This document shows positions 19,224 through 39,505 of a stretch of DNA of 64,000 bases, one piece after another. The notes beneath the pieces were generated by a model. The model saw only the letters and a list, made by a program, of their open reading frames with translations. It was not told the DNA's origin and made no database searches. The stretch covers positions 656,781 through 720,780 of the forward strand of contig NC_014378.1 in the NCBI RefSeq assembly GCF_000144695.1. The letters run 5' to 3'. Both the position numbers and the translations under genes were made by a program. Source of the DNA: Acetohalobium arabaticum DSM 5501 (lineage in GTDB: Bacteria; Bacillota; Halanaerobiia; Halobacteroidales; Acetohalobiaceae). The first letter of the stretch is position 1; the number at the start of each line of letters is the position of its first letter.

Positions 19224-20597
19224 TTGAGGAAGCGCTTTGTTAACCGGATTCGGCGGGAGATTATAGGAGTTGGGACCAAAGTACCATTAAATAATGGACG
19301 CCATATTCAGTATATAAATTTTGATAATGCTGCCAGTACTCCAGCTTTTAGAAGAGTTAATCATAAAGTTGAAGAATTTTTGGCTTGGTATTCTAATGTT
19401 CACCGCGGTTCTGGGTTTAAGTCCCAGTTGGCTACTGAAGTCTATGATAAAGTACGTAGGCTGGTTGCTGATTTTGTAGGGGCTGATTTTGAAGAGAATA
19501 AAGTTATCTTTTTAAAGAATACTACGGAAGCAATTAATAAACTGGTTGCTGCTCTTGATTTATCCCAAGATGATGTAGTAATTACTACTGTAATGGAGCA
19601 TCATTCTAATATGCTGCCCTGGCGCAGTCAGGCAGAAGTAGTCTATGCTGAGGTAGATAAGAATGGTAGATTAGATATTAATGATCTAGAAAAGAAATTA
19701 GCTACCTATCACTCTAGGGTGAAGTTAGTGGCAGTCTCTGGTGCGTCCAATGTTACTGGATATTTGAATCCAATTCATAAGATAGCCCGCCTGGCTCATC
19801 GGTATAATAGTCAAATTTTAGTTGATGGGGCTCAACTGATCCCCCATCGATCTGTAGAGATGAAGGCTAATTCAAATACTGAACATATTGATTACCTGGC
19901 TTTTTCGGCCCATAAGATGTATGCCCCGTTAGGCTGTGGGGTGTTAGTGGGGCCAAAAGAGTGCTTTGCTGGCCAAGAGCCGGATTACAGCGGTGGAGGA
20001 ACGATTGAAGCTGTTACTCTTGATGATGTCGTCTGGGCTGAGTCTCCGGAAAAAGAGGAAGCAGGGACCCCTAACATTGTTGGTGCTGTAGCTTTAGGGG
20101 CCAGTATTAAGATGATCCAAAAAATAGACTGGGAGGCCTTAATCGAGCAGGAGGAGAGGTTAAGAAAGTATCTGTTAAAACAGCTACAGCAGTTAGAAGA
20201 GGTAAAACTGTATGGAGCAATGGCTAAAGGAGTTCCTGACAATCAGGTAGGAGTGATATCCTTTAACCTTGACTCCTTCCATCATTCATTAGTAGCTTCT
20301 ATTCTTGGTAGGGAATGGGGAATTGGGGTAAGAAGCGGCTGTTTCTGTGCTCAGCCTTATCTACACCGGTTACTGGATTTAGCTAATAGGGAGATAGAAG
20401 AGTTTAAGGATAAATTAAGGAGAAATGAAGATGTTAAAAGACCGGGATTAGTCCGGGTTAGCTTCGGATGTTATAATACGATTAAGGAGATACAGCGGTT
20501 AATTAAGGGCCTACAGTCAATTATTGACCGCCAGAAGAAGGGAGCTGATTTTAATGATGAACAGGAGTATGATTTTGAGCAGTATTTTAAACTATAA
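19224..20597 (+). CDS. SufS/CsdA-like cysteine desulfurase (aminotransferase class V)
   Basis: A 457-aa PLP enzyme. Motifs: NFDNAASTPA near residue 35, EHHSNMLPWR, VDGAQLIPH, the PLP lysine in FSAHKMYAPLGCG at about residue 232, and the catalytic Cys in RSGCFCAQPYLHRLL near residue 372. This is the group II (SufS/CsdA) layout. It is longer than SufS (about 405 aa), with a basic N-terminal extension and a charged C-terminal tail. There is no sufBCDU next to it, so whether it serves Fe-S assembly, selenium or another sulfur user is open. The start is TTG after GGGGGTAAATAGG. Confidence 0.88.
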   Translation: MRKRFVNRIRREIIGVGTKVPLNNGRHIQYINFDNAASTPAFRRVNHKVEEFLAWYSNVHRGSGFKSQLATEVYDKVRRLVADFVGADFEENKVIFLKNTTEAINKLVAALDLSQDDVVITTVMEHHSNMLPWRSQAEVVYAEVDKNGRLDINDLEKKLATYHSRVKLVAVSGASNVTGYLNPIHKIARLAHRYNSQILVDGAQLIPHRSVEMKANSNTEHIDYLAFSAHKMYAPLGCGVLVGPKECFAGQEPDYSGGGTIEAVTLDDVVWAESPEKEEAGTPNIVGAVALGASIKMIQKIDWEALIEQEERLRKYLLKQLQQLEEVKLYGAMAKGVPDNQVGVISFNLDSFHHSLVASILGREWGIGVRSGCFCAQPYLHRLLDLANREIEEFKDKLRRNEDVKRPGLVRVSFGCYNTIKEIQRLIKGLQSIIDRQKKGADFNDEQEYDFEQYFKL

Positions 20598-20715: not shown

Positions 20716-21104
20716 AAAACAAAAAAAGACAGCAACGATCTACGCTCCAGCTACTGCAGACTCTAAGGAACCTATAGCAATCTCTCGACTACTATAGATC
20801 CTTTCCGAGCCTACAATAACCTTTGCTCGAACATGATAGAGCTATCTTGAGACCATGGGCAGTCTCTTGACTGCTAACCATGATCTTTACAGACTCTATC
20901 ATGTTCTCAGGTCGATCAACATAGATCTCTGACGAGCCTAGGCAATAACCTCTTCGGGCTAAATTGTAGACTCTTTCAAAACCTATGCTGATCTTCGCAT
21001 TGGCCATTATAGACCATAACAGCCTATAATGACCGCTGCTCGATTGGTTCAGATCCTAAATAAGATTTAGAACCTGAACCAATCTTCCCTCGACCGTTGC
21101 TGAC
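20716..21104 (-). ncRNA. candidate novel structured RNA, about 385 nt
   Basis: Ends at 20730-20740 and 21092-21102 pair as an 11-bp closing helix. Inside lie six more helices: 21042-21084 (a 20-bp hairpin with a 3-base loop), 21002-21012 with 21024-21034, 20914-20924 with 20983-20993, 20829-20841 with 20894-20906 (13 bp perfect), 20806-20810 with 20825-20829, and 20765-20777 with 20792-20803. In five helices the non-Watson-Crick pairs are G-U on the minus strand and A-C on the plus strand, which fixes the strand. A 7-T run at the minus-strand 3-prime end acts as a terminator. Two loops share AGGTTATTGnnTAGGCTCG. I do not recognise it as tmRNA, RNase P RNA, 6S, SRP RNA or a group II intron. 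Confidence 0.7.
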
Positions 21105-21270
21105 TTCTTTTTCACTAACTATAATGTGCTGTAAAATAAGAAATTATACAGGTAAATATTGTATTTTTTGCTATAAAATCAAAGATAAAGATTGAATTCT
21201 GTTGTAATGGAAGTTTTAGAAACAATTCAAGTATTGGAATTAAATTATCTTATAATAATTTATATATAAT

Positions 21271-37854: not shown

Positions 37855-38160
37855 GTAAATGTCACCTTCTCCCCATTAAAATGGGAAGCTTGGGAAAATC
37901 ATTTTAGTGTAAGGTGTCCAGGGTAAGTTAGTTATCTAGCTACGTTATGGTAGTTACGATACCTTAAAGTGCCTCCCTAGCTTTAAGCTCTATCGCCTAG
38001 CATTAAATAACTCAATGGGAGTACAATAGAGTAGTGTGTTAAGCGTAAAAGCTACCATAACTTACCCGAAGGGAGCGTAGACATTACTTAAAAGTCTACC
38101 GTTACCTTATTTTAAGAGAGTAGATACCTTATCTACTTAACCTAAACCAAAAAAGGATGT
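37855..38160 (+). ncRNA. IscB-associated omegaRNA (HEARO-like)
   Basis: This gene-free stretch sits directly upstream of iscB, the place where IscB omegaRNA is encoded. It is rich in stems: CCCATTAAAATGGG near 37873; GTTATGGTAG (37944-37953) with CTACCATAAC (38052-38061), 10 bp perfect; and GGGTAAGTT (37921-37929) with AACTTACCC (38059-38067), which competes with it, so one could be a pseudoknot or alternative. CTCTAT and ATAGAG also pair (37988 and 38026). A guide would be read from the flank left of about 37855. Exact ends are uncertain. Confidence 0.72.
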
Positions 38161-38166
38161 GTTAAA

Positions 38167-39505
38167 ATGGTATTTGTGCTCAATAAAGACAAAACTCCAC
38201 TTAATCCTTGTCATAACGGTAAGGCTAAGTGGTTATTAGATAATAATTATGCTGTAGTGCATAAGATACAACCTTTTACAATCAGACTTAAAAAGAAAGT
38301 TACTAATCCTAATTTGAAGGACTATACACTTAAAATTGACCCTGGGAGTAAAACAACAGGGTTAGCTATCAATAACGGCAGTCAAGTAGCGTTTTTAGCT
38401 AATTTGCATCATCGAGCTGATACTATTAAGCAAAACTTACAAACCCATAGAGAACATAGGCGGTTTAGACGCTCTCAATTGAAGTATAGAGAAAAACGTT
38501 TTGATAATCGTAAGCGGGGAGATAACTGGTTACCACCGAGTGTTGATTCTATAGTTAATAACATTAAAACCTGGGTGCAGCGGTTAAAGAAGTTATGTCC
38601 TATTAGCAAAGTAGTAGTTGAAATGGTAAGATTTGATACCCAGAAAATGCAAAATCCTGAGATCGAAGGTATAGAGTATCAGCAAGGCACATTACGAAGG
38701 TTACAATGTAAGAGAATATTTACTTTATAAGCACAATCACACTTGCCAATACTGTGGGGGCGAAAGTGGTGATCCAGTTTTGGAAGTTGAGCATAAAATT
38801 CCTAGCTCACGTGGCGGTACAGATAGTATCAAAAACCTTACTCTATCATGCAAGACTTGTAATCAGGATAAAGATAATCGAACACTTAAAGAATGGTTAC
38901 AGGACTTAAAAGAGCAGGATTTCCGCAAAAAGCTACCTAAAGTTCGCTACAAAAATGTAAAGCAGATACTTGAAAGTAAAGTAGATATTTCACTTAAAGA
39001 TGCAGGTAGAGTCAATAGTTATCGTTATAAGTTGTTAGATCAGCTTAAAAGCATTTGTAGCAATATTGAAACATCAACTGGTGCTAAGACTAAGTATAAC
39101 CGCAATCAAGTAGCTGAATTAGAGAAAACTCATTATTTTGATGCGTTATGTGTTGGGACTGCTAAGCAAGAATATAGTTTTCAAAAAGGGTTTAAAGTGT
39201 TAAGTATTAAAGCAACAGGTCGAGGTACAAGACAGCGTACTTTGCTTGATAAGTATGGGTTTCCAAGAGCTTATCGTTCACGTAATAAGTATGTAGATAA
39301 CTTTAAAACAGGCGATTTAGTTAAAGCAGTAATTCCTAAAGGTAAAAACAAGGGAGTTTACTTTGCTAGAGTATCTACTCGCAAAAGTGGTTACTTTAGG
39401 TTAGATTGTTTTAATGGCAGTAAAGTTGATGGAGTAAATAGTAAATATTTAAACTTACTACAACGAGGAGCTGGTTATAGCTATAGTTTTGAAGATATAG
39501 CTTAA
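38167..39505 (+). pseudogene. iscB: IscB nuclease, broken by one frameshift
   Basis: Two frames together encode a full IscB, the OMEGA nuclease related to Cas9. Frame one (38167-38730) has the PLMP-like TPLNP start, RuvC-I LKIDPGSKTTGLAI, the Arg-rich bridge helix HRRFRRSQLKYREKR and RuvC-II VVVEMVRFDT. Near 38691-38693 the frame shifts by one base. Frame two continues YEGYNVREYLLYKHNHTCQYCGG, then the HNH site EVEHKIPSSRGGTDSIKNL with CxxC pairs, and RuvC-III HYFDALCVG. All catalytic residues are present, so only the frameshift inactivates it, unless a programmed shift or sequencing error explains it. The PID-like end has GTRQRTLLDKYGFPRAY. Confidence 0.85.

Follow-up and report, generated by a model that had tools for sequence, protein, structure and literature searches.

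The interval discussed here lies in a stretch of 64,000 nucleotides of the Acetohalobium arabaticum DSM 5501 genome (NC_014378.1, positions 656,781 to 720,780), which we call the window. The question is whether the minus strand of this interval encodes a structured RNA, as was originally predicted from the DNA letters and, if so, when the RNA is made, how widely it is spread and what it may do. Positions are those of the window unless noted otherwise.

Fold, strand and architecture of the RNA

The minus strand from 20716 to 21104/21111 folds with a predicted energy of -196.7 kcal/mol, as compared to a mean of -107.4 kcal/mol for shuffled sequences (sd 5.5, z -16.2), and none of the 100 shuffles was as good. 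The plus strand of the same interval has a much weaker fold (-124.1 kcal/mol, z -8.6). The original prediction that about 385 nt of the minus strand form a structured RNA is borne out by this fold and by the covariation in 51 copies described below. The proposed 20-bp hairpin is found at 21084-21065/21061-21042. The closing helix had been given as 11 bp and needs to be corrected: it has 19 bp (21111-21092 with 20740-20721), so the RNA gene is expected to start about 7 nt beyond the interval considered at the outset. The gene and its parts, listed from the 5' to the 3' end of the RNA, are the following; the arms are taken from the fold and the consensus.

20716..21111, minus strand: structured RNA gene of about 390 nt, the extent of the whole transcript being deduced from the promoter, the closing helix and the U run
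21092..21111, minus strand: 5' strand of the closing helix P1, from the fold of the window copy and the conserved closing helix in the folds of relatives
21042..21084, minus strand: arm A, a hairpin of 20 bp (consensus about 16 bp)
20997..21039, minus strand: arm B, a short GC clamp followed by a 14-bp helix
20914..20993, minus strand: arm C, a 16-bp helix with a distal helix
20829..20906, minus strand: arm D, a 17-bp helix with a distal hairpin
20744..20826, minus strand: arm E, a GC clamp with a 15-bp and a 17-bp helix and a GAGA loop at 20786-20783
20721..20740, minus strand: 3' strand of P1, ending in a U7 run (20727-20721), from sequence and fold

The 3' strand of P1 probably doubles as a terminator stem; around the 3' end of the RNA a mean of 6.8 T per 12 nt was found in the 51 copies. 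Arm E is the most conserved part of the RNA and forms the basis of the search models R1 and R2 (see below). The distal loop of arm D is AAGA in the window copy and GNRA in most relatives. Some relatives, e.g. locus L103 (genome G044), have extra hairpin sequence inserted into this arm, the geometry of the remaining RNA being unchanged.

The evidence for pairing comes from comparing the copies. A total of 62 hits were folded together with their upstream sequence; four had no closing helix and were dropped, and seven of the remaining 58 were set aside owing to an implausible length (above 460 nt) or a cut contig. The 51 copies thus retained were aligned with MAFFT by sequence only (median pairwise identity 0.60, minimum 0.41), and the consensus structure calculated with RNAalifold contains 140 pairs. 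Canonical pairs make up 96.5% of the 7050 pair cells (5093 Watson-Crick, 1709 G-U, 55 A-C and 193 other). When the partner was slid by 1-3 columns, 29-44% of the cells were canonical, and when the columns were dealt anew the value was 76.8%; neither control removes kinship. At 109 of the 140 pairs both partners have changed between two Watson-Crick types, and each type is present in at least two copies. The covarying homologues that had been named beforehand as a check are thus present as full-length copies, and we consider it practically certain that this is a real RNA family under selection at the level of the RNA.

The same table of pairs identifies the strand. G-U outnumbers A-C at the consensus pairs by 31 to 1, and G-U pairs occur in most helices, which upholds the strand-diagnostic role originally ascribed to them. 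Since the opposite strand would turn every G-U into an A-C mismatch, the minus strand is the RNA.

It is conspicuous how regular the architecture is. The consensus consists of P1 (16 bp) and the arms A (16), B (2+15), C (16+14), D (about 15, a variable part and 13) and E (2+15+15). In single folds a helix span of 16 is the commonest (193 counts), followed by 15 (97 counts), and every other span is counted at most 43 times. Linkers of the type G(A/G)GC-NAAG, a loose pattern, connect the helices, with 4-6 per RNA in 39 of the 51 copies. The tetraloops are GNRA in 107 of 164 cases, and exactly two GNRA loops per RNA are seen in 37 of the 51 copies. Arms C and E share the sequence AGGTTATTG..TAGGCTCG because the arms are variants of one module; in other words, the sharing is a trace of a modular build. 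An extra 'nn' within this sequence is present in just one of the two copies. The sharing had been noticed in the original prediction, which placed it in two loops; the sequence in fact belongs to paired strands of the two arms.

Distribution among genomes and association with sporulation genes

A second copy of the RNA is found in the same genome (positions 1,328,734-1,329,066, 84% identity), in which arm A is shortened to a remnant. Within the GTDB family three of five genomes carry the RNA, A. arabaticum included, and there is no match to it in the genus-mate (G001). In the class it was detected in 10 of 59 genomes by blastn and in 11 of 59 by the model R2.

Two covariance models were used for the wider search. 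R1 describes the 3' arm (arm E) and was built from 13 copies; it matches 116 of 398 relatives, most of which merely belong to the same phylum. R2 was built from 58 phylum-wide rows selected among the primary hits, leaving out near-duplicates and the weak locus L109, and matches 171 of 398 genomes in an even sample of the phylum that overlaps the R1 sample. As an outgroup control we used the class of the genome behind locus L010 (Winslowiella), in which R2 matches none of 143 genomes; nor did R2 match any of four further genomes that were reached via a neighbouring permease. Conservation was to be checked in relatives, and many of these do carry the RNA, its spread extending far beyond the Halanaerobiales.

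Some genomes harbour more than one copy. In G003 two copies lie about 6.7 kb apart on one contig (locus L101, 6158-6269 and 12897-13008, minus strand), and two copies are also seen in several other genomes. The second match in G011 (locus L109, 5986-6090, minus strand) is weak; it has P1 and lacks most arms, i.e. it is probably a degenerate remnant of the RNA.

The presence of the RNA was compared with that of sigma-G, called with the spore_sigG model over the 398 relatives (E below 1e-60, our own cut-off, placed between clear groups and a few fragments). The R1-positive genomes comprise 115 with and one without sigma-G, as compared to 201 with and 81 without among the R1-negative ones (Fisher p 6e-13, kinship ignored). 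The single exception, G333, is a genome that is 61% complete. When the R2 matches (from part of the 398) and G058 were added, the RNA was present in 157 of 316 genomes with sigma-G and in one of 82 others, again ignoring kinship. Within the class the numbers are 11 of 27 with and 0 of 32 without sigma-G. The RNA is thus confined almost wholly to genomes that have a forespore programme. It is not essential to sporulation as such, since about half of the sigma-G genomes, including the genus-mate, gave no match to it. As to A. arabaticum itself, its genome paper states 'Sporulation unknown; not observed'. Sigma-G and three matches to SASP genes are present in its genome all the same.

Promoter

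Upstream of the RNA there are two elements that resemble promoters of the forespore sigma factors:

21145..21149, minus strand: -35 element GTATA of the forespore sigma type, from sequence and motif scan
21120..21129, minus strand: -10 element GCACATTATA, 15 nt from the -35 element, from sequence; the motif is conserved in register in the 51 copies

For the scan we used GYATA-N14/15-GGnnAnAnTA, which we take to be the sigma-F promoter consensus and which was written down after the sequences had been seen. The window -10 element GCACATTATA has 2 mismatches to GGnnAnAnTR. With this assumed consensus, the best motif in the 60 nt upstream has 0, 1, 2 and 3 mismatches in 13, 19, 18 and 1 of the 51 copies, respectively; the corresponding numbers for dinucleotide shuffles, scaled to 51, are 0.0, 0.4, 3.6 and 18.4. 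At most two mismatches are thus found in 50 of the 51 copies, as compared to 2.0 of 51 in random windows of the same loci, and in 50 of the 51 copies a distance of 0-10 nt separates the end of the -10 element from the folded 5' end.

The consensuses of sigma-A, E, K and H fit less well than that of sigma-F, and sigma-G, also a forespore factor, comes second. A housekeeping sigma-A promoter was rejected, with a mean of 3.8 mismatches as compared to 1.1 for the forespore type. According to PMC3789822, the sigma-F and sigma-G consensuses of Clostridium difficile are very alike and closely resemble their B. subtilis counterparts, sigma-F promoters being marked by a G that lies upstream of the -10 element. 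SASP genes were found in all 20 RNA-bearing genomes searched, and 30 SASP genes of RNA-bearing genomes served as a positive control. Their -35 elements are similar, and the -10 elements often have no GG. At most two mismatches were found in 23 of the 30 genes for the sigma-F form (3.5 expected) and in 22 of the 30 for the sigma-G form (8.2 expected).

Judged by the motif, the RNA has the sigma-F/sigma-G type of promoter that is characteristic of forespore noncoding RNAs such as CsfG and Bvs196. On computational grounds, its expression in the forespore appears very probable. The original prediction had contained neither this promoter nor the wide spread, the association with sporulation genes and the construction from modules of 15-16 bp.

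Proposed mode of action, alternative explanations and comparison with known RNAs

The neighbourhood was investigated by clustering 756 ORFs around the 62 hits in 60 loci. The most widely shared cluster, which by our own reading resembles an ATP-binding transporter component, occurs in 15 of the 60 loci at scattered distances. Each of the other clusters is found in at most nine loci, and several of them are frames inside the RNA itself. There is, in other words, no fixed gene neighbour and, as detailed below, no match in phages or plasmids, as one would expect if the RNA acts in trans and is neither a leader nor carried by a mobile element. On balance we favour an independently transcribed, trans-acting structural RNA that is expressed in the forespore and may form a scaffold or a ribonucleoprotein particle.

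Such an RNA would be transcribed on its own from the forespore-type promoter by sigma-F, perhaps being kept on by sigma-G, and transcription would end at the U run behind P1. In the folded transcript, short linkers of nearly the same sequence would connect the closing helix and the five arms, and most helices would measure 15-16 bp. We suggest that geometry rather than a message is under selection, because the helix lengths are nearly constant while the sequence changes freely. The repetition of the linkers further suggests that the same contact is made several times, either to a protein or between copies of the RNA. The rigid and repetitive fold might then act as a scaffold that forms a particle in the forespore, either by self-assembly or together with a protein, and this particle could act in trans in spore formation, dormancy or outgrowth; this part is a guess. 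That the RNA is a structural scaffold or RNP rather than an antisense regulator is a tentative preference, to which we give somewhat less than even weight. In its most specific form the proposal would describe an architectural endospore RNA, with a 15-16 bp module repeated around a near-symmetric six-helix junction, forming a self-assembling or protein-bound particle that belongs to the standard equipment of the forespore in a large proportion of the relatives that form spores. We regard this form as speculative and, taken as a whole, rather unlikely.

The most serious alternative is a small RNA of the forespore that base-pairs to mRNAs, like the Bacillus sRNA Bvs196. The promoter class of Bvs196, as given in PMC9147052, is the same as that of the present RNA, and the trans-acting layout would suit it equally. 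However, 280 of the 369 well-filled consensus columns are paired. Of the unpaired columns, 27 are conserved at 90% or more, and most of these are located in tetraloops and in the short linkers; there is no long open stretch that could serve as a seed. We consider such a regulator to be unlikely, although it is the best of the alternatives.

Secondly, the RNA might belong to a mobile element or phage, as do ROOL and GOLLD, and simply be carried along by spore formers. Its patchy presence, the two copies in some genomes and the absence from the genus-mate would agree with this. On the other hand, there was no match among 50,697 phage records (two queries) or 72,556 plasmid records (one query), and no gene is widely shared nearby. 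In viral contigs an exact pattern found nothing, and a second pattern returned one contig with an 18-base word, which is not the RNA. A mobile origin thus seems improbable.

The original prediction also conceived of a switch, in which a second stem next to the T run competes with the closing helix. A cis-acting switch or attenuator would fit the strong helix that ends in a U run, but other results speak against it. When folded by themselves, the final 75 nt do not surpass shuffled sequences (z +0.93); a conserved alternative stem was not detected, and the 51 copies examined retain P1. Moreover, the RNA has a promoter motif of its own and no constant downstream gene, the gene 3' of it in the window (19224-20597) being on the opposite strand. 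This explanation is very improbable. Least probable of all is a gene for a small protein, the 71-aa ORF at 20792-21007, since the compensatory changes and indels fit pairing and not codons and there is no Pfam match, even if the longest sense frame is slightly above that of shuffles (median 77 vs 61 aa).

Turning back to the structural RNA that we favour, the expectation that it resembles no known family was confirmed. At the gathering score none of the 4227 models of Rfam 15 matches it; up to E 10 the window RNA gave just weak, sub-threshold and chance-like matches, and up to E 0.1 ten distant relatives gave no match to the RNA itself. We take it that models of OLE, ROOL/GOLLD and raiA are part of this library; no covariance-model match assigned the window RNA or the ten relatives to any of these families. 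Next to the RNA in G166 (locus L047, 2483-2640, minus strand) there is a TwoAYGGAY-like RNA that scores 41.1, as compared to its gathering score of 43. The sole Rfam hit in the window is a HEARO RNA at 37861-38081 (plus strand, 128.7 bits). It is a feature separate from the RNA at 20716-21111, which is itself not a HEARO RNA. Behind the HEARO RNA lies an IscB-like gene that reaches up to 39505 (plus strand) and is split into two frames, an RRXRR part (38167-38730) and an HNH part (38780-39505), both of which match the IscB model; a frameshift may have disrupted the protein. The RNA at 20716-21111 was likewise not found in the accessible literature, including three genome-wide surveys of noncoding RNAs and excluding preprints, supplements and most subscription journals. 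It thus appears to be a new RNA class by sequence and fold, while CsfG and Bvs196 were compared by description only.

Few large structured RNAs are widespread in bacteria, and the discovery of new classes has tended to lead to unexpected systems. The present RNA has no counterpart in Rfam, is carried by a large part of the sampled spore-forming relatives, and comes with a ready hypothesis as to when and where it is made. Should it prove to be a component of the spore, then a structure that has so far been described almost wholly as proteins, peptidoglycan and small molecules would gain an RNA. With its regular helix lengths, the RNA also invites structural work.

Among the known systems, CsfG is presumably much smaller than the present RNA. 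It is a forespore sRNA under sigma-F and sigma-G with no target known, as described in PMC9147052, and has the control that is predicted for the present RNA. Bvs196/S547 of Bacillus is under sigma-F and sigma-G control, is restricted to the forespore and affects spore resistance. By its description in the same source it has the independent transcription and the sigma-F/sigma-G control predicted for the present RNA and a stable conserved fold like it, whereas it has 294 nt and -82 kcal/mol as compared to about 390 nt and -197 kcal/mol. OLE RNA of Bacillota is likewise large and ornate, with conserved helices, but measures about 600 nt. ROOL and GOLLD are large multi-helix RNAs of unknown role and provide a model for a particle made of RNA only; both form cages and GOLLD is borne by phages or prophages (PMC12286853), whereas the present RNA was not found in phages. 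The raiA motif RNA is also widespread in Bacillota; it has 205 nt in the construct cited in PMC12286853, and its disruption leads to sporulation defects according to the title of a paper cited there. The present RNA matched none of these in Rfam. As a functional kind, it would join the forespore RNAs CsfG and Bvs196 on the one hand and the large ornate RNAs OLE, ROOL, GOLLD and raiA on the other.
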